Source: Parcubacteria group bacterium CG08_land_8_20_14_0_20_48_21
GTDB lineage: Bacteria; Patescibacteriota; Patescibacteriia; UBA1544
Length of the DNA stretch: 42,283 bases
NCBI GenBank assembly: GCA_002774425.1
Contig: PEYJ01000029.1
Location: forward strand, 1 to 42,283
Direction: 5' to 3'
The translations under genes and the position numbers were made by a program. Shown here piece by piece: positions 34,980 through 42,283 of this stretch (positions are counted from its first letter, which is position 1; the number at the start of each line of letters is the position of its first letter). Under the pieces are notes generated by a model. The model was not told where the DNA came from and did not search any database. It saw nothing but the letters and a program-made list of their open reading frames with translations.

Positions 34980-35054
34980 TCCGGGGTAGCTCAGCGGTAG
35001 AGCAGTTGACTGTTAATCAATTGGTCGTGGGTTCGAATCCCACCCCCGGAGCCA
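34980..35054 (+). tRNA. tRNA-Asn (GTT), integration target
   Basis: Acceptor TCCGGGG/CCCCGGA, D-arm GCTC...GAGC, anticodon stem with loop CTGTTAA (anticodon GTT), T-arm GTGGG/CCCAC with TTCGAAT, discriminator G and encoded CCA (35052-35054). The serine recombinase gene on the opposite strand ends inside it, so its 3' half is probably the attachment core. Confidence 0.95.
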
Positions 35055-36656
35055 TATGGGATGAGCAGAGCCAAAAGCTCTGCTTTTCTCTTTATTTACG
35101 GGCTTATTCAGATGTTCGAATATTTTATTTTGGTCTATTTTCTCTCCCATAAGCTCGCCGACTCGGTCAAAGATGATTTTAAACGCTTTGTGAAGGGAAA
35201 CCTCGACTTTTTTGCCGTTTAGCGTAGTGTTCGAAAAAATCAGGGACAAAAGTAGTTTTTTATCGTCCACCATCTCCACTTTGTTCCGGTTGATGTAAAT
35301 TTTCCATGCTTGCTTGGCCACTTGGAGGACCGTCACGCCCATTTCGAAGTATTTCAGGTTGGCATCCTTGTGCTTGTTGAGGTTGTCCAGTATCTGCTCC
35401 TGCTCAATTTTGTATTGCTCAAATTTCTTTTTATAAAAATCCTCGCTGATTTTCTCGTCGATCTTGTTATCGTATATCTTGTCCAGCCGTTGCGTGGCCA
35501 CTTCATACCGGCGGTTGAGCTCGGCCGTTGATTTGTTGCGGAATTCTATTTCCTCGCTATGGCTTTCCTTGAGAGCTTCCTGGACCCAGGAGAGCATACT
35601 TTCCACGGCCTGTTCGCCTTTGGGGTTCAGCGAGTTCATGGTTTCTATCAGTTGTGTGTCCAAGACTTCCTGCCGGACAAACTCCCTTTGTTGGCAGTTT
35701 TTATAATGGTTGCAGTGGCCGTACCAGTGGCCTCGTTGTATTTCCCATGTTATCCGGCCTTTGCATTCGTTACAGCGGAAGACGTTTTTAAAGAGCGGAT
35801 TATGCTTGAAATATCTCGGCGTGCCGTTGGTATGCATGATTTCCTGGCACCGGTCATATAGCTCTTTGGTGATGAGCGGTTCGTGTTCACCTTTGGTCAG
35901 CCGGCCGTCCCAGCGGTTCGTGCCGAAGTAGAACGGATCGCCGAGAAGTTGATGGACTCTTGAATGGCTTACTTTATTTCCTCCACGGGACCGCAAGCCT
36001 TCAGCATAGATGACTTCGGACAGTTTTTTGGTTGAGTAGCGGTTAGTGGCGTATAAGTCAAACATTTTTTTAATGAGCGGCGACTTGTCCGGATCAATCA
36101 CATGGATTTTATGTCCTTTTTCGCCAATGGTTTTATATCCAAGCGGCGGTTTGGCCGGAAGCCAGCCTTGGGACAGTTTTTCTTTTTGTCCTTTCCTGAC
36201 GTTTTCAGAAAGCAGTCGGATATAATACTCGGCTGTGGCGACTTTAACTCGCCACATAAACCATTCGTGCGACTTGGAGTCTTTGTGAAGAGTACAGCCT
36301 TCTTTCACCAGATGAATGGTATGTTTTTCATCGGCCAGTATCCATTCGTCGATCACCGGCACATCCGCGAAGTTACGGGTCAGACGATCGGTTGTTTCCA
36401 CGAAGACCGTGTTGATCTTGGTTTTGGTTACATATTCCAGCATCTCATGGAATATTTTTCGCTGGATTTTTCCGGCGGCCGATTCCTGAATAGCAAAAAC
36501 CTTCGTGAGCTCAAAGCCGTTCCGGTCGGCATAGTCATGAAGGAGTTTTTCTTGAGCCGGCAAAGAGTAGCCGGAGTCCTCTTGATCCTTTGAGGAGACA
36601 CGGGCGTATCCCACGGCTCGCATTGATTCATTTTCGTTTTGCATTGTCATAGTCAT
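35013..36656 (-). CDS. Large serine recombinase (integrase) overlapping tRNA-Asn
   Basis: The 547-residue protein has the resolvase catalytic domain with GYARVSS (nucleophile S21), LPAQEKLLHDYA and the ETTDRLTRNF active-site helix. A Recombinase domain follows (about 160-270, GWLPAKPPLGYK and RVHQLLGDPFYFG), then a zinc ribbon (FRCNECKG then CNHYKNC), a coiled coil and a C-terminal DNA-binding part. This is the architecture of phage-type large serine integrases. ATG 36656 is preferred; an upstream in-frame start at 36701 lacks family sequence. The last residues (WLRGWDSNPRPID) are encoded by the strand opposite the 3' half of tRNA-Asn, the mark of an element inserted with its integrase next to the attachment site. 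Confidence 0.92.
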   Translation of the reverse strand: MTMTMQNENESMRAVGYARVSSKDQEDSGYSLPAQEKLLHDYADRNGFELTKVFAIQESAAGKIQRKIFHEMLEYVTKTKINTVFVETTDRLTRNFADVPVIDEWILADEKHTIHLVKEGCTLHKDSKSHEWFMWRVKVATAEYYIRLLSENVRKGQKEKLSQGWLPAKPPLGYKTIGEKGHKIHVIDPDKSPLIKKMFDLYATNRYSTKKLSEVIYAEGLRSRGGNKVSHSRVHQLLGDPFYFGTNRWDGRLTKGEHEPLITKELYDRCQEIMHTNGTPRYFKHNPLFKNVFRCNECKGRITWEIQRGHWYGHCNHYKNCQQREFVRQEVLDTQLIETMNSLNPKGEQAVESMLSWVQEALKESHSEEIEFRNKSTAELNRRYEVATQRLDKIYDNKIDEKISEDFYKKKFEQYKIEQEQILDNLNKHKDANLKYFEMGVTVLQVAKQAWKIYINRNKVEMVDDKKLLLSLIFSNTTLNGKKVEVSLHKAFKIIFDRVGELMGEKIDQNKIFEHLNKPVNKEKSRAFGSAHPIWLRGWDSNPRPID

Positions 36657-36802
36657 TTTTTTGTTAATAATTATTTGTTCGAATGCGACCTTTGGTACCA
36701 AGACACACCATACGCTAATTTTTAGAACAAGCTAAGCTCGAGTTGCCCACATGCTTGGATTTTTCTCAAAATGTTGTAATTTCCTGTAATTTGTTGCATT
36801 TA

Positions 36803-36933
36803 AGTGTATTTATCCTTGTGTAAATTTTTACCAGATTTGTTGGCTTATGTTGGGTTTTGCCGGGTTTTAGTGTATTTATTTTTGTTCGATTCATTGCCGT
36901 TTACTGCTGATTGTTGCCGTTAAGTGTATTTAT
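36803..36933. repeat. Three iterated AGTGTATTTAT repeats
   Basis: The 11-mer occurs at 36803-36813, 36869-36879 and 36923-36933 in one orientation, spaced 66 and 54 bp apart, with similar surroundings (TTGC and TTAA or TTTT before it). The gap 36657-36900 otherwise holds no convincing gene. They may be binding sites for the recombinase, an excision factor or a replication protein. Confidence 0.6.
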
Positions 36934-37146
36934 CATTTCCTGTTTTTCCTGAAGTTTCCGGATCAGAATTTGATCCTCGGCATATCGGCTATAAGCTTCT
37001 CTTAAGAATCCTTTCGCTCTGAACCACGACTTGACTGTATCGAGAGTCACTCCCACTTCACTGGCGATTTTCTCATAAGGGACACTAAGCCACCGCATCT
37101 CGATTGCTCGTTTGTGCCACGGTCTTAAGTAAGTGAGCTTGGGCAT
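36901..37146 (-). CDS. Small helix-turn-helix protein
   Basis: The 81-residue protein has a clear helix-turn-helix, PYEKIASEVGVTLDTVKSWF (about 23-42), in the style of homeodomain-like, sigma-region-4 or phage terminase small subunit DNA-binding modules. A C-terminal charged helix (EDQILIRKLQEKQEMI) may dimerise. It starts one base after the stop of the preceding gene and lies upstream of the recombinase on the same strand, so a recombination directionality factor or element regulator is a reasonable guess. Its 3' end contains the third copy of the AGTGTATTTAT repeat. Confidence 0.65.
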   Translation of the reverse strand: MPKLTYLRPWHKRAIEMRWLSVPYEKIASEVGVTLDTVKSWFRAKGFLREAYSRYAEDQILIRKLQEKQEMINTLNGNNQQ

Positions 37147-37147
37147 A

Positions 37148-37708
37148 TTACTTGATGGACATCTTGCGAAGTAATTCCGCTCTGGCTTCGGCGATGCTTT
37201 TTAATTTCTCGGACCGGCCGTTAACTTCTTTATAATTTTCTTTAATTTCTTTTAAATCCTTAACTTCTATATCATCGCCGTCCCATGCGGTCTGCTTGTC
37301 ATGCCGTCCGGTTTTACATGCTGATTGGTTTCCACCCTGCGTCAGATGTAGGACGGAGAGCAAGGTAATACTCCGGGGCTTGAACTTGGCATCTTCGCCC
37401 CGGGTTTTTGTGATTGCGATAAAACTCCACTCCTCGAGCTTGGCCAAACACTTCTTAATCGTTCGCCAGTCTTTTAAGCCGGAATAAATTAGAAGCGTTT
37501 TATTTGATGCTTCTACGGTCTGGCTTGCTTTGTTGGAGGCGATCTCGGTCAAGGCACAGTACACATTGCATAAGTTGCGAAACGCATCCACGCCGATGTG
37601 CTTATCAAGCCATTGCTGTCGCATGTATCGCAAAGCCGGCTTATCCTGATAAGCAAATGGAGCTTCGCGGTAATCCCTGACTTTATGATTTTTATTTTGC
37701 TGGTTCAT
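37148..37708 (-). CDS. Element protein, possible winged-helix replication-type factor
   Basis: The 186-residue protein is not a family I can name. The central region (about 40-120: NLCNVYCALTEIASNKAS, then KTLLIYSGLKDWRTIKKCLAKLEEWSFI) looks like a winged helix in which a recognition helix precedes a beta wing, as in DnaD-, RepA- or phage-replication proteins. The C-terminal part is charged and low in complexity. Its ATG overlaps the end of the upstream small gene by 17 bp, and it is followed by the helix-turn-helix gene after one base, so this is a compact operon. Confidence 0.55.
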   Translation of the reverse strand: MNQQNKNHKVRDYREAPFAYQDKPALRYMRQQWLDKHIGVDAFRNLCNVYCALTEIASNKASQTVEASNKTLLIYSGLKDWRTIKKCLAKLEEWSFIAITKTRGEDAKFKPRSITLLSVLHLTQGGNQSACKTGRHDKQTAWDGDDIEVKDLKEIKENYKEVNGRSEKLKSIAEARAELLRKMSIK

Positions 37709-37892
37709 TGTCGTATGGCACTAAGAGCTCACGGCCGCTTGTGATATCCTCGCAATAAAAACGCATCAGAGCGTCGTAATAGCCCACGAGGTTGAAAGCG
37801 ATATCATGCAAGTCCTGGTCATTCACTTCTTGGCCAAAGTCTTTTTTAAGAATCGCGCGGAGCTTTTCCAGCGTTTCCGGTTTTAATTTCAC
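37692..37892 (-). CDS. Small hypothetical element protein, GTG start
   Basis: A 66-residue protein starting at GTG 37892, five bases after the stop of the DUF5659 gene. It reads KLKPETLEKLRAILKKDFG at the start, then DQDLHDIAFNLVGYYDALMRF. Two amphipathic helices are likely. The GTG is preferred because codons further upstream lie inside the preceding gene in another frame. Short proteins of this look occur in mobile elements of candidate-phyla bacteria; the function is unknown. Confidence 0.6.
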   Translation of the reverse strand: MKLKPETLEKLRAILKKDFGQEVNDQDLHDIAFNLVGYYDALMRFYCEDITSGRELLVPYDNEPAK

Positions 37893-37897
37893 AGGTC

Positions 37898-38140
37898 TTA
37901 GTCCTCGGCATAAATCCGCACTTTGACCTGTTTGAGCTCGTTGAAGAACGCCTGCGGCTCGACTTGAAGCTCGCGGCTCCAATATCGCTTCACCAGAGAA
38001 TCCAAGTCCGGGCTCTTGCCGAAGCAAAAGAGCACCTTGCGCGGATTTCCCCGATCCACGACCTCAAGAGAATCAGGAATAAATAATAAAAGCGCCGCGA
38101 CCAATGCCAGATCGGCGGTTTTGTAATAATTGTTTTCCAT
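37898..38140 (-). CDS. DUF5659 domain protein
   Basis: The 80-residue protein fits the DUF5659 pattern: an opening YKTADLALVAALL helix, a middle DRGNPRKVLFCF strand pair, an SLVKRYWSRELQVEP segment and a final FNELKQVKVRIY. The family is common on mobile elements and has no known activity. It is the first gene of the minus-strand cluster that ends with the recombinase. Confidence 0.75.
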   Translation of the reverse strand: MENNYYKTADLALVAALLLFIPDSLEVVDRGNPRKVLFCFGKSPDLDSLVKRYWSRELQVEPQAFFNELKQVKVRIYAED

Positions 38141-38243
38141 ATTGTGGCATTTTCATCGTCATTAATTTTTTCCTCTCACACGTATTAATTATTGCAATCG
38201 GGCCGCTATGCCTTAAATAGTCCGCAAAGAAATTTTTGCAAAC

Positions 38244-38266
38244 AAAAAACGCCTGTTCTGCAGGCG
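38244..38266 (-). terminator. Terminator of the regulator-like gene
   Basis: On the minus strand CGCCTG (38266-38261) pairs with CAGGCG (38255-38250) around a five-base loop, then TTTTTTG. Confidence 0.8.
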
Positions 38267-38306
38267 CATCACCAAGGTTATTAACACTACTTGAGGAATA
38301 CGAGCG

Positions 38307-38987
38307 TCACCGCAAGAAAATTCTGTACTTCGGATTGATCCGGTAACCGTCGGTTCGACGGCCTTCGATGAGTCTTGTGATTTTCAAATCATTCTTTGCC
38401 TTGGCATTAATTTTCATAATGGCCGAACGGACAGAGTAATCACTCCCGGCGTTCGTAGCCATACAGATATCCGGTGTCGGCTGATAAGTTTTGCCGATCA
38501 GATATTTTACGATCCGATGACGCAGATCCTCTTTGCCCATTGGATAACAGTATTTGTTTTTGGGATCGCGGTATAAATCAGCCTCGGCCGATAAATGAAG
38601 AATGGTCTGTTTTAACTCCGGCTTGGTTTTTCCTTGGGCAAAATATTCGGCAAAAGCGACAGCCGCCTCCCGGGTGAATGTTTTTATAAACTGCTGGTCA
38701 TATTCGGTCAGCCCCTCAAACTTGCTTGTCCGGCGTTCCAAGAGGGATCGGATGCTTTTCACTTCGAGTTTAGTTTCGATGAGCTCCTTGGTCAGCGTAC
38801 CGATTGCCGGCCGGTTTGTCCTTATAATTTTTTCACTATCGGCAATACCGGCAGTTTTCATTGAAGACCGAAGTATCTTTTCAGTCGTGGCAATCGAAAG
38901 CCGGTACGTCGTGATCTTTGCGACATTTTTCCGGATATTGAATTTGTATCTGGTGGCCAGCGTGGCCTTTTTCATTTTCATAATCAT
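38307..38987 (-). CDS. Unknown protein with a possible winged-helix C-terminus
   Basis: The 226-residue protein is basic and mostly helical. The N-terminal third has MKKATLATRYKFNIRK and a helix TLTKELIETKLEVKSIRSLL. The C-terminus, RLIEGRRTDGYRINPKYRI, resembles the wing of OmpR-type winged helices (GRGYRL-like). I cannot name a family. ATG 38987 is chosen since an in-frame ATG at 39035 lies inside an inverted repeat that more likely serves as promoter or operator; ATGs at 38981 and 38975 are also possible. It is divergent from the AbiE operon and has its own terminator, so it may be a regulator acting on the shared control region. Confidence 0.55.
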   Translation of the reverse strand: MIMKMKKATLATRYKFNIRKNVAKITTYRLSIATTEKILRSSMKTAGIADSEKIIRTNRPAIGTLTKELIETKLEVKSIRSLLERRTSKFEGLTEYDQQFIKTFTREAAVAFAEYFAQGKTKPELKQTILHLSAEADLYRDPKNKYCYPMGKEDLRHRIVKYLIGKTYQPTPDICMATNAGSDYSVRSAIMKINAKAKNDLKITRLIEGRRTDGYRINPKYRIFLR

Positions 38988-39115: not shown

Positions 39116-39144
39116 TTGCGCTTATTTGCATTATAGCATAAAAT
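39116..39144 (+). promoter_or_regulatory. Promoter of the AbiE defence operon
   Basis: TTGCGC (39116-39121), a 17-bp spacer and TAAAAT (39139-39144), about 36 bp before the AbiEi ATG. It is flanked by TTACTTA (39097-39103) and TAAGTAA (39153-39159), a third inverted repeat. Confidence 0.55.
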
Positions 39145-39186
39145 AGATACTGTAAGTAAGGTTTAAACTAACATACAGACTATATT

Positions 39187-39777
39187 ATGGAAAAAGGCGA
39201 TTATATCTCAACAATTTTGCGATCAAAACAAACGGTTTTATCGGCCAAAGACATAATGTTGCTTTGGAGCGAAGCCAGTTCTGATGCGGCCAGAGTAAGG
39301 ATCAACTACTACGCCAAAAGCGGAGCTCTTTATCGTATTCGCAGAGGTTTTTATGCCAAGGATAAAGATTACAACAAATTCGAGTTGGCGACCAAAATAT
39401 TTACGCCCTCCTATATCAGCTTTGAGACCGTCCTCGGTCAGGCCGGCATAACCTTTCAGCACTACAATCAAATATTTATCGCATCTTATACCAAGCGAGA
39501 AATCACTGCCGATGGTCAGACATATTCCTATAAGCGAATCAAAGATGCCATTCTCACTAATCCGGCCGGTATTGAGAGCAAGGATAATTATTCTATCGCA
39601 ACTCCCGAGCGCGCGTTTTTAGATGTGGTTTATTTAAACAAGGATTATCACTTTGACAATCTCGGTCCTTTGAATTGGGACAAAGTATTCGAGATACTTT
39701 CTATTTATGGCGGCAACAAACGCATGGAAAAAATGGTCAAGAAATATCGCGAAGCATTAAATACAGAGACAAAATAA
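39187..39777 (+). CDS. AbiEi-like antitoxin / transcriptional regulator
   Basis: The 196-residue protein matches the AbiEi family of type IV toxin-antitoxin antitoxins. It has an N-terminal winged helix (about 8-60: SKQTVLSAKDIMLLWS in part, then ARVRINYYAKSGALYRIRRGFY), with the typical GxLxRIRRGxY wing. The core (about 70-190) has SYISFETVLGQAGI and the conserved ATPERAFLDVVYL motif. AbiEi represses its own operon by binding inverted repeats and counters AbiEii by an indirect route. It is the first gene of a tight plus-strand operon, five bases from the toxin. No Shine-Dalgarno is evident. Confidence 0.85.
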   Translation: MEKGDYISTILRSKQTVLSAKDIMLLWSEASSDAARVRINYYAKSGALYRIRRGFYAKDKDYNKFELATKIFTPSYISFETVLGQAGITFQHYNQIFIASYTKREITADGQTYSYKRIKDAILTNPAGIESKDNYSIATPERAFLDVVYLNKDYHFDNLGPLNWDKVFEILSIYGGNKRMEKMVKKYREALNTETK

Positions 39778-39782
39778 ATTTT

Positions 39783-40487
39783 ATGACGCTCAACACCACA
39801 ACACACAAAAATATCCTCATCAAAATCCTTAAGGATATCTATACCGATTCAACAATCGGGCCGCTTTTGGGATTTAAGGGCGGTACGGCCGTCTATCTTT
39901 TTTATAATTTGAACCGCTTTTCAGTGGACTTGGATTTTGATTTACTCGATGCCGAAAAAGAGGACTATGTTTTCGAGCAAATAAAAAAGATTTTAGAGAA
40001 TTACGGCACAATAAAAGAAGCGGAAAAGAAACGTTTTAATCTGTTTTATGTTTTGGCTTATGACGACAAGGTTCCGGGTGCCCAGAATATCAAGGTGGAA
40101 ATTAATCGCCGGGAATTCGGCTCGAAGTATGAAGTAAAGTCATATCTCGGCATTTCCATGAAAGTTATGGTGCAGGAGGATATGTTCGCTCACAAGCTTT
40201 GTGCTATGTATGAGCGGATTGGTAAAACCAACCGCGACATTTTTGATGTCTGGTATTTTTTGCAGAATGAATGGCCGGTTAATAAGAAAATTGTCGAGGA
40301 ACGCACCAGTATGATTTTCAAGGAATTCTTACAGAAGTGTGTCGATTCACTGGAAAAAATGACCGACCAAAATATTCTTTCCGGCATGGGCGAACTATTG
40401 GACGCCAAGCAGAAAGATTGGGTAAAAGCCAAACTCCGCACCGAGACGATATTCTTGCTGAAGCTTAAATTACAAAACGAAAAATAA
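39783..40487 (+). CDS. AbiEii-like nucleotidyltransferase toxin
   Basis: The 234-residue protein is a DNA-polymerase-beta-fold nucleotidyltransferase of the AbiEii family. Signature motifs: FKGGTAVYLFY (G33, G34), SVDLDFDLL (D49, D51) and, downstream, KVEINRREFG. The C-terminal EDMFAHKLCAMYER and GKTNRDIFDVWYFL segments are the other conserved family blocks. Relatives transfer nucleotides and halt growth, giving abortive phage resistance. ATG 39783 lies five bases after the antitoxin stop. All catalytic motifs look intact, so the toxin is probably functional. Confidence 0.88.
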   Translation: MTLNTTTHKNILIKILKDIYTDSTIGPLLGFKGGTAVYLFYNLNRFSVDLDFDLLDAEKEDYVFEQIKKILENYGTIKEAEKKRFNLFYVLAYDDKVPGAQNIKVEINRREFGSKYEVKSYLGISMKVMVQEDMFAHKLCAMYERIGKTNRDIFDVWYFLQNEWPVNKKIVEERTSMIFKEFLQKCVDSLEKMTDQNILSGMGELLDAKQKDWVKAKLRTETIFLLKLKLQNEK

Positions 40488-40488
40488 T

Positions 40489-41403
40489 ATGGCCCTATTC
40501 AAAATCAACGGCTCGGCCGTCAAGAAAATAACCGCCAAAGAGCTTGATCTGGAGAAAAACCTACAGACACTTTTTGAGAGCAATCTTGAAGAATTGTTAA
40601 ACATTATTTTTCTGGCTCATGAATATCCGACCAGTTTCGGCGGCCGGATTGATACCCTTGGTATTGATAAAGACGGCGCGCCTTGCATCATTGAATACAA
40701 GAAAAACCAAAACGATAATGTGATCAATCAAGGGCTTTCATATCTATACTGGCTTTTGGATCACAAGGCTGATTTTGAAAAAGTCTGTCAAAACAAAAAG
40801 ATTGAAATAGAGATTGACTGGGATTCTCCCCGGGTCATTTGCGTTGCTGAAAGCTACAATAAATTTGATCTGGATACGGTGAATGTTTTGCCGATTAATG
40901 TTGAGCTCTGGCGGTACCGCATCTATGACGAAAACATTCTCTTTTTGGAGCCGGAAAATTTTCAGAAAGTACGGGTATCAACGGCAAGTATTGTGCGGAA
41001 AACAAAACACGACAAAGAAAAACAAGAAATAATACAGAAGAATTATTCGGTGGACGAACATCTTGAGAAAGCTGGAGAGGATATCAAATCGTTATTTTTA
41101 AAGTTACGCGAAAAAATCATCTCGCTTGATACGGAAATTAAAGAAGATCCGCAAAAACACTATGTGGCTTATAAGCTATCGACCAACTTTGCCGATGTAG
41201 AGGTATATCGCAATCAGCTTAAAATTTTCTTGAACGTAAAAAGCGGACAACTTAACGATCCTGATTCCATTGCTCGGGATATGGAAAAACCAAAGCACAT
41301 CGGCCACCACGGCAATGGCGATTACGAGGTTAAGCTCGAAAGCGAAGCCGACATAGACAAGGTATTTTCGCTTATAAAGCAAAGCTACGATCTGAATAAA
41401 TAA
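40489..41403 (+). CDS. PD-(D/E)XK nuclease-like protein with a C-terminal DUF5655 domain
   Basis: The 304-residue protein has an N-terminal nuclease fold: a helical SNLEELLNIIF, then GGRIDTLGID (D55), CIIEYKK (E69, K71) and INQGLSYLYWLL (Q81, Y85). This is the D...ExK...QxxxY layout of RecB/NucS/DUF91-like nucleases. The end (about 195-304, SLFLKLREKIISLD through NFADVEVYRNQLKIFLN and HHGNGDYEVKLE) fits DUF5655. It starts one base after the toxin stop and two bases before RadC, so it belongs to the same operon. A DNA-targeting defence effector or accessory nuclease is likely; its substrate is unknown. Confidence 0.8.
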   Translation: MALFKINGSAVKKITAKELDLEKNLQTLFESNLEELLNIIFLAHEYPTSFGGRIDTLGIDKDGAPCIIEYKKNQNDNVINQGLSYLYWLLDHKADFEKVCQNKKIEIEIDWDSPRVICVAESYNKFDLDTVNVLPINVELWRYRIYDENILFLEPENFQKVRVSTASIVRKTKHDKEKQEIIQKNYSVDEHLEKAGEDIKSLFLKLREKIISLDTEIKEDPQKHYVAYKLSTNFADVEVYRNQLKIFLNVKSGQLNDPDSIARDMEKPKHIGHHGNGDYEVKLESEADIDKVFSLIKQSYDLNK

Positions 41404-41405
41404 GT

Positions 41406-42068
41406 ATGAAAATAAAAGATTTGCCAAAAGTTGATAGACCGCGAGAAAAACTGGAGAAATACGGCCCCGAGCGACTTTCTGATTCGGAACTTTTGGCTAT
41501 TCTTTTACGAACCGGAAGCGAAGGCATAAATGTAGTGGAATTATCCAGTAAGATTTTAAGGAAATTCAGTGGCGCTGGATTGGCCAAAGCGTCGGCCAAA
41601 GAATTGAAAAATACATTTGGTCTTGGAAGCGCGAAAGCGTGCGAAATCGTCGCCTGCTATGAACTTGGTCGTCGGCATTTACACGATAAGCAATCGGTTC
41701 TGCTTTTATCGCCAAAAGATGTTTGGGACGAACTCAAGGATATTCGGGATCATAAAAAAGAACACTTCGTGATTTTCTTTTTGGATTCCAGAAATCAGGA
41801 AATCAAGCGTGAAATCGTTTCAGTCGGTTCACTTAATGCAAATCTCGTTCATCCGCGCGAAGTATTTGAGCCGGCTGTCCGGCATTTGGCCGCGCAGGTT
41901 ATTATTGCTCACAATCACCCAGCCGGCGATCCAACACCATCGCAAGAAGATTCAGATATAACTAAGCAATTAGTTGATGCGGGCAAGCTTCTCGGTATCG
42001 ATATAAGCGACCACGTGATCGTCAGTAAAACAAATTTTTTCAGCTTCAAAGAGCATAAATTGATTTAA
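41406..42068 (+). CDS. radC: RadC family JAMM-domain protein
   Basis: The 220-residue protein has an N-terminal helix-hairpin-helix part (about 20-90, PERLSDSELLAILLRTGS and LKNTFGLGSAKACEI) and a C-terminal JAB1/MPN (JAMM) domain. The metal ligands are complete: HNHPAGDPTPSQED gives H169-x-H171-x7-S179-x2-D182. RadC proteins are frequent on mobile elements near restriction systems, and their exact role is still debated despite the old DNA-repair label. It lies two bases after the DUF5655 gene and six before hsdR. Confidence 0.93.
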   Translation: MKIKDLPKVDRPREKLEKYGPERLSDSELLAILLRTGSEGINVVELSSKILRKFSGAGLAKASAKELKNTFGLGSAKACEIVACYELGRRHLHDKQSVLLLSPKDVWDELKDIRDHKKEHFVIFFLDSRNQEIKREIVSVGSLNANLVHPREVFEPAVRHLAAQVIIAHNHPAGDPTPSQEDSDITKQLVDAGKLLGIDISDHVIVSKTNFFSFKEHKLI

Positions 42069-42073
42069 ATATT

Positions 42074-42283
42074 ATGGCTACTCAAGATACAACCGGAAAA
42101 AAGTTCATGCGCGAAACAGACGCGCGTATTCTCATTGACCGCAGACTCCGCGAAGCCGATTGGGATATCGAAAACAAGAATCAGGTCTCAACCGAAGAGA
42201 CTTCACAGAACGGCCGCGCTGATTATATTCTTAAAGACTCAAGGGGTCGCGCCATAGCCGTTATTGAGGCAAAGCGTTTTGCT
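42074..42283 (+). CDS. hsdR: Type I restriction endonuclease R subunit, N-terminal fragment
   Basis: The frame opens at ATG 42074 and runs off the right edge after 70 residues. It has the N-terminal nuclease signature of HsdR: helix DARILIDRRLREADWD, then GRADYILKD (D50) and AVIEAKRFA (E65, K67), a D...ExK motif, in the order expected. The helicase part is outside the window, so an SNF2- or DEAD-type restriction helicase relative is still possible. It follows RadC by five bases in the defence operon. HsdM and HsdS would be expected further right. Confidence 0.75.
   Translation, partial: MATQDTTGKKFMRETDARILIDRRLREADWDIENKNQVSTEETSQNGRADYILKDSRGRAIAVIEAKRFA

Follow-up and report, generated by a model that had tools for sequence, protein, structure and literature searches.

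The window analyzed in this study, a complete contig (C14) of 42,283 nt from Parcubacteria group bacterium CG08_land_8_20_14_0_20_48_21 (PEYJ01000029.1; assembly total 876 kb), ends in a run of five plus-strand genes encoding the AbiE toxin-antitoxin (TA) pair AbiEi and AbiEii, a nuclease of the PDC-S18/DUF5655 family, RadC, and the start of the type I restriction subunit HsdR (Table 1). With a probability of about 0.6, this cluster is best understood as belonging to a mobile type I restriction-modification (RM) operon that is located on a genomic island and carries stacked, interchangeable leader genes. The five genes together probably do not represent a fixed machine. Instead, they expose a testable pattern, in which the conserved PDC-S18 nuclease and RadC are found again and again at the front of restriction operons of all types while their partners are swapped near gene borders. 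These recurrent companions, rather than AbiE, are the most interesting part of the locus, as they suggest that a restriction cut may in many cases not end the attack, and as they offer a way into the functions of both DUF5655 and RadC, the role of the latter being disputed.

Operon layout and restriction genes next to the leader genes

An earlier note on this DNA had described five plus-strand genes, separated by 1-5 bases, on one apparent transcript. Coordinates and profile identities agree with this description, and the gaps (5, 1, 2, and 5 bases) support a single apparent operon. As the window is the whole contig, HsdR is cut off after 70 codons. The visible N-terminus shares 72-75% identity with an EcoEI-type HsdR of 779 aa from another genome of the phylum (L063). 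That protein has HSDR_N, ResIII, helicase, and EcoEI_R_C domains; an hsdM gene comes after it, and an hsdS-like gene lies further downstream. Because of this identity to a full HsdR accompanied by hsdM, the last gene is very probably a true type I HsdR, as had been proposed. The likeness to type I systems of the EcoEI/EcoAI kind concerns the N-terminal nuclease region within these 70 codons, and the two loci differ in that AbiE, PDC-S18, and RadC stand in front of the window gene, whereas L063 lacks them.

A scan of 84,980 genomes for the nuclease yielded 27 loci, mostly 65-89% identical, in Patescibacteria and apparently also in Zixibacteria, Elusimicrobia, Omnitrophota, and Phycisphaerae; within the phylum, the family is present in 18 of 380 genomes. 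The downstream gene could be read in 26 loci, and in 18 of these an RM gene lies immediately downstream of the nuclease (in L029, one open reading frame (ORF) further on). These partners comprise type III systems (L004, L027), type I or IIG-like systems (L005, L006, L028, L029), EcoRV (L008, L030), EcoRI methylases (L011, L015, L017, L021), DpnII/MutH-type enzymes (L012, L016, L022, L023), a RadC-D12 methylase with AlwI (L014), and Mrr (L024). Three further loci show an ORF without assignment downstream and a methylase nearby. About ten of the downstream RM genes were tested directly with Pfam, and the others were assigned via BLAST to the tested ones (L027 at 24% identity only). Distant relatives of the nuclease were also found on prophage-like or viral contigs (L106, L108, L109), where, as read from the sequence, they lie inside apparent hsdM-hsdS-nuclease-hsdR runs. 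Another relative, L158, has a complete cassette in the order PDC-S18-hsdM-hsdS-hsdR.

The partner changes even among nearly identical nucleases. The nucleases of L008 and L016 are 96% identical, yet one leads EcoRV and the other a different methylase, and a type III system follows the nearest relative of the window nuclease (L004, 89%). When partner type was placed on the nuclease tree, 14 changes were counted among 23 labelled rows with 10 states (minimum 9). Upstream partners were seen as well: a Fic-domain gene lies 4 bases ahead of the nuclease in L004 (2-970), L006 (6932-7996), and L071 (432-1496). Between L004 and L006, identity is 99% for the Fic proteins and 78% for the nucleases, and the RM types that follow differ.

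The window RadC consists of a UPF0758_N domain and a RadC JAB domain with the HxH...D motif (HNHPAGDPTPSQED) and is the only RadC in the assembly. Reading the neighborhoods of 29 relatives placed RadC directly before hsdM (L133), a type III mod gene (L138), or MutH-type enzymes (L127, L128), and two genes ahead of hsdM in L134. A Vsr-DUF559 protein is encoded directly upstream of RadC in L145 (2159-2671). RadC can even be fused to methylases, namely to a C5-cytosine methylase in L142 (1495-3168) and to a D12 adenine methylase in the nuclease locus L014 (1236-3062), where the fusion follows the PDC-S18 nuclease and precedes AlwI. Besides the window, L014 is the only locus seen in which RadC comes after PDC-S18.

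DNA matches to the window mostly stop within ~15 bases of gene borders. Matches in nuclease loci cover the gene plus ~10 bases on either side, and a few of them reach up to 40 bases into RadC; those in AbiE loci span ~39140-40490, and those in RadC loci begin at 41406. Judged from these match ends, the cluster is assembled from cassettes in a mosaic fashion.

Two further observations concern close relatives of the nuclease. In L013, L019, and L070, they are located beside an apparent PilB-like ATPase gene, joined in L013 by a gene for a LysM/M23 peptidase, and an RM gene is absent, which points to either a non-defense context or an insertion. The nuclease of L016, a Phycisphaerae contig, shares 96% identity with one from a Peregrinibacteria contig; either the gene has moved between phyla recently, or the short contig is mis-binned.

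The PDC-S18 nuclease and its proposed role

The window nuclease matches the PDC-S18 profile over its full length and combines an N-terminal PD-(D/E)XK nuclease domain of NucS/Shedu-like character with a C-terminal DUF5655 domain. Across 33 sequences, down to 29% identity, D55, K71, and Q81 never vary, and at least 90% of the sequences retain E69. The PD-(D/E)XK assignment made earlier was thus right, and with the AbiEii motifs also present, so was the view that the visible catalytic residues are intact. An AlphaFold model built after adding distant relatives (predicted local distance difference test (pLDDT) 84.5, predicted template modeling score (pTM) 0.51) replaced a weaker first model from close homologues only (pLDDT 71). 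Foldseek matched the model to EndoMS/NucS (best, E 1.6e-4) and to SduA of Shedu (E ~0.01, probability 0.99-1.00); the template modeling scores stay low (<0.42), since the alignments cover one domain at most. A search of the nuclease profile against PDB sequences returned nothing credible (troponin T, E ~0.05), and no Shedu profile (SduA/DUF4263) in Pfam or PADLOC matched the protein. Membership in Shedu was rejected, the likeness being confined to the fold predicted for the nuclease domain (8ps5, 8ti9, 5gke, 2vld); unlike Shedu and NucS/EndoMS, the window protein carries a C-terminal DUF5655 domain and is associated with RM.

PADLOC catalogs PDC-S18 as a candidate phage-defense family only, whereas it leads a restriction operon in the window and in most close relatives. 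None of the papers in the library searched mentions DUF5655 or PDC-S18 by name. COG3586 and DUF5655 may be the same family. In Methanosarcina acetivorans, a COG3586 putative nuclease was reported near a type I RM cluster and a YhcG protein, with a PD-(D/E)XK prediction (PMC1189080); similarly, a YhcG protein precedes the nuclease in L024.

In the proposed model, an island carried by the large serine recombinase next to tRNA-Asn would contain the type I RM operon, of which the cluster would be the visible left part. The operon would have gathered three leader cassettes, each joined near a gene border: AbiEi-AbiEii with its own promoter, the PDC-S18/DUF5655 nuclease, and RadC. A single transcript would start at the AbiEi promoter and be autorepressed by AbiEi, which, if there is no internal promoter, would control the restriction genes as well. 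AbiE would then probably addict the cell to the island and add a layer of abortive infection, while HsdR-HsdM-HsdS would cut unmethylated DNA and RadC might take part in processing or tolerating the resulting DNA damage. The PDC-S18 nuclease probably attacks the DNA opened by restriction, by analogy with SduA of Shedu, which binds DNA ends and nicks nearby (PMC12904381). Action on restriction-opened DNA would explain why the nuclease is independent of RM type. Taken to its full extent, as a partner-independent accessory nuclease of NucS/Shedu fold that destroys opened DNA for all four restriction types, passes from one RM operon to another as a single-gene cassette on islands with serine recombinases, and in the window comes under an AbiEi-controlled promoter that adds TA control of the whole restriction operon, this proposal is possible but rather unlikely.

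For PDC-S18 itself, the main alternative to attack on DNA ends is a NucS-like repair role. In this variant of the best reading, the protein would be a repair enzyme of RM systems, a mismatch or damage nickase comparable to Vsr or NucS that protects the host. EndoMS/NucS as the best fold match and the Vsr gene beside the RadC relative in L145 argue for it; SduA, however, matches the structure almost as well, and the partners of PDC-S18 mostly belong to adenine or N4 methylase families. Methylation of these kinds does not give rise to T:G mismatches, the substrate of Vsr. A Vsr-like role was rejected as first choice because of these partners, and the repair variant as a whole is possible but rather unlikely.

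AbiE, gene order, and the limits of a single module

The adjacent genes for AbiEi, a winged helix-turn-helix antitoxin, and AbiEii, a nucleotidyltransferase, identify the pair as an AbiE type IV TA system. The AbiEii translation contains motifs I-IV (GG-x14-DLD, an R in motif II, KLCAMYER in motif III, and RDIFD in motif IV), with M at a usually aromatic position of motif III when compared with the characterized system (PMC3985639). As in that system, the pair is bicistronic. Predicted -35 and -10 elements and then a weak, imperfect candidate operator precede it; in the characterized system, AbiEi represses such a promoter via inverted repeats (Dy et al., 2014, PMC3985639). Whereas the known system stands alone, the window AbiE leads after 1 base into the nuclease, RadC, and hsdR. 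The same loose promoter pattern fits 26 of 29 AbiE upstream regions, 52-82 bases ahead of the start, and is not among the listings of a generic promoter scanner for the window. The candidate operator was likewise missed by a generic inverted-repeat finder; its location and part of its sequence are common to the window, L035, L040, and L046, and it is conspicuous in relatives such as L035 and L046.

AbiEii is present in 49 of the 380 genomes of the phylum, and AbiEi adjoins AbiEii in the loci read (a small ORF separates the two in L154). Most of these loci have unrelated neighbors. Two of them show AbiE at the head of RM genes, which were named from reading the sequence and not by profile search: a Mod-Res-like type III system after a 4-base gap in L153, and a 326-aa ORF with a C5-methylase, resembling type II, in L154. 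The nuclease follows AbiE in none of the 29 other AbiE loci read out of the 49 genomes, and AbiE was not found near the nuclease in any of the 27 loci of the genome scan.

Could the five genes be ordinary defense-island stacking, that is, independent genes side by side without a functional or regulatory link? AbiE, RM, and RadC are all common, the latter occurring in 109 of the 380 genomes. Since an RM gene comes next in 18 of 26 nuclease loci, chance stacking would not produce the observed pattern; PDC-S18 and RadC often occupy the same position, a few bases ahead of restriction genes, and the RadC-methylase fusions point in the same direction. This explanation is doubtful for the cluster as a whole.

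The earlier note had suggested a single composite module. In such a module, AbiE would monitor or guard the restriction enzyme, and restriction disabled by phage, or loss of AbiEi, would allow AbiEii to halt growth. There is precedent in EcoprrI, where the toxin gene prrC lies inside a type IC restriction operon (PMC3874165), and the contiguous genes of the window and the AbiE genes heading the L153 and L154 operons are in keeping with it. The two cases differ in that the anticodon nuclease PrrC is held by the RM complex, whereas AbiEii has its own antitoxin; together with its own promoter, this makes AbiE a complete unit already, and the anatomy proposed for a guarding toxin fits plain island addiction equally well. 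An RM neighbor is, moreover, absent at most AbiE relatives. A genome search for the AbiEi-AbiEii-DUF5655-RadC-HsdR order, named in the earlier note as a test that could refute the proposal, found it nowhere else among the 27 genome loci, the 18 phylum genomes with the nuclease, and the 29 AbiE loci. A fixed five-gene module was rejected, as none of these loci shares the order; the comparison does support repeated placement of AbiE, of RadC, and of the nuclease, taken one by one, as the first genes of restriction operons. A true composite module is the least likely of the explanations considered. The accompanying remark that few defense systems have been studied in candidate phyla is dated, as a groundwater survey including ~3,000 genomes of the candidate phyla radiation lists AbiE and RM among the common first-line systems (PMC12259885). 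None of the papers in the library searched combines AbiE, Fic, RadC, operon, and RM.

Several findings weigh against a mobile type I RM operon with interchangeable leaders. Because AbiE heads RM in only two other AbiE loci examined, its placement in the window could be chance island stacking. The window palindrome is weak alone, with 11 of 60 shuffles equally good. No RM gene was seen at the nuclease loci L007, L013, L019, L020, and L026, and some RM calls rest on likeness to Pfam-tested neighbors or on sequence reading. The contig ends inside hsdR, and neither the remainder of hsdR nor hsdM or hsdS was found in the 876-kb assembly: the sole PF02384 match is at the cut-off (20.6 bits), and its frame reads more like a PrmC-type methyltransferase than HsdM, so that no convincing HsdM was found. 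Finally, no right end of the island was set: a second copy of the tRNA end was sought in the genome, and only weak matches, apparently other tRNA genes, were obtained.

Island surroundings and minor features

Table 1. Positions of the genes and other elements in the window.
Feature	Position	Strand	Details
tRNA-Asn(gtt), probable attachment site and left edge of island	34980..35054	+	ARAGORN; recombinase ORF enters its antisense strand
Large serine recombinase (phage-type integrase)	35013..36701	-	Pfam Resolvase and Recombinase; PHROG integrase E 8e-70
Short island ORFs without family match	36901..38981	-	One with weak similarity to DNA-binding/terminase-small-subunit proteins
Predicted promoter	39116..39144	+	TTGCGC-17-TAAAAT, upstream of AbiEi
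Imperfect 29-bp palindrome, candidate AbiEi operator	39150..39178	+	Between -10 and ATG; 11/14 pairs
AbiEi antitoxin/repressor	39187..39777	+	196 aa; PADLOC PDLC02255 E 1.4e-57
AbiEii nucleotidyltransferase toxin	39783..40487	+	234 aa; PADLOC PDLC02324 E 4.3e-83; Pfam AbiEii 1.8e-21
PDC-S18/DUF5655 protein	40489..41403	+	304 aa; PADLOC E 1.3e-100; Pfam DUF5655 E 1.3e-14
RadC, full length	41406..42068	+	220 aa; Pfam 2.9e-41; NCBIfam 2.7e-70
HsdR, type I (EcoEI-like), N-terminal 70 codons	42074..42283	+	Open at window end; Pfam HSDR_N weak, E 1e-4

Within positions 39160-42080, a clear Shine-Dalgarno sequence precedes none of the five genes, and A/T-rich bases are found before their starts. Matches to Pfam CC_BshC, NCBIfam RpoS, and PADLOC Csm2 were disregarded, as they were below the cut-off or at chance level.

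The GC content is ~41% over the last 4 kb, compared with 45-53% in the rest of the window. This low-GC region, with a recombinase beside tRNA-Asn, looks like a genomic island whose right edge lies beyond the contig. The C-terminus of the serine recombinase (WLRGWDSNPRPID) is tRNA-derived, as the frame ends within the antisense of tRNA-Asn. A recombinase frame that ends in tRNA antisense is a usual mark of integration at a tRNA. Homologues of the serine recombinase adjoin several DUF5655-RM and RadC-methylase loci as well (L022, L023, L025, L028, L029, L142, L158).

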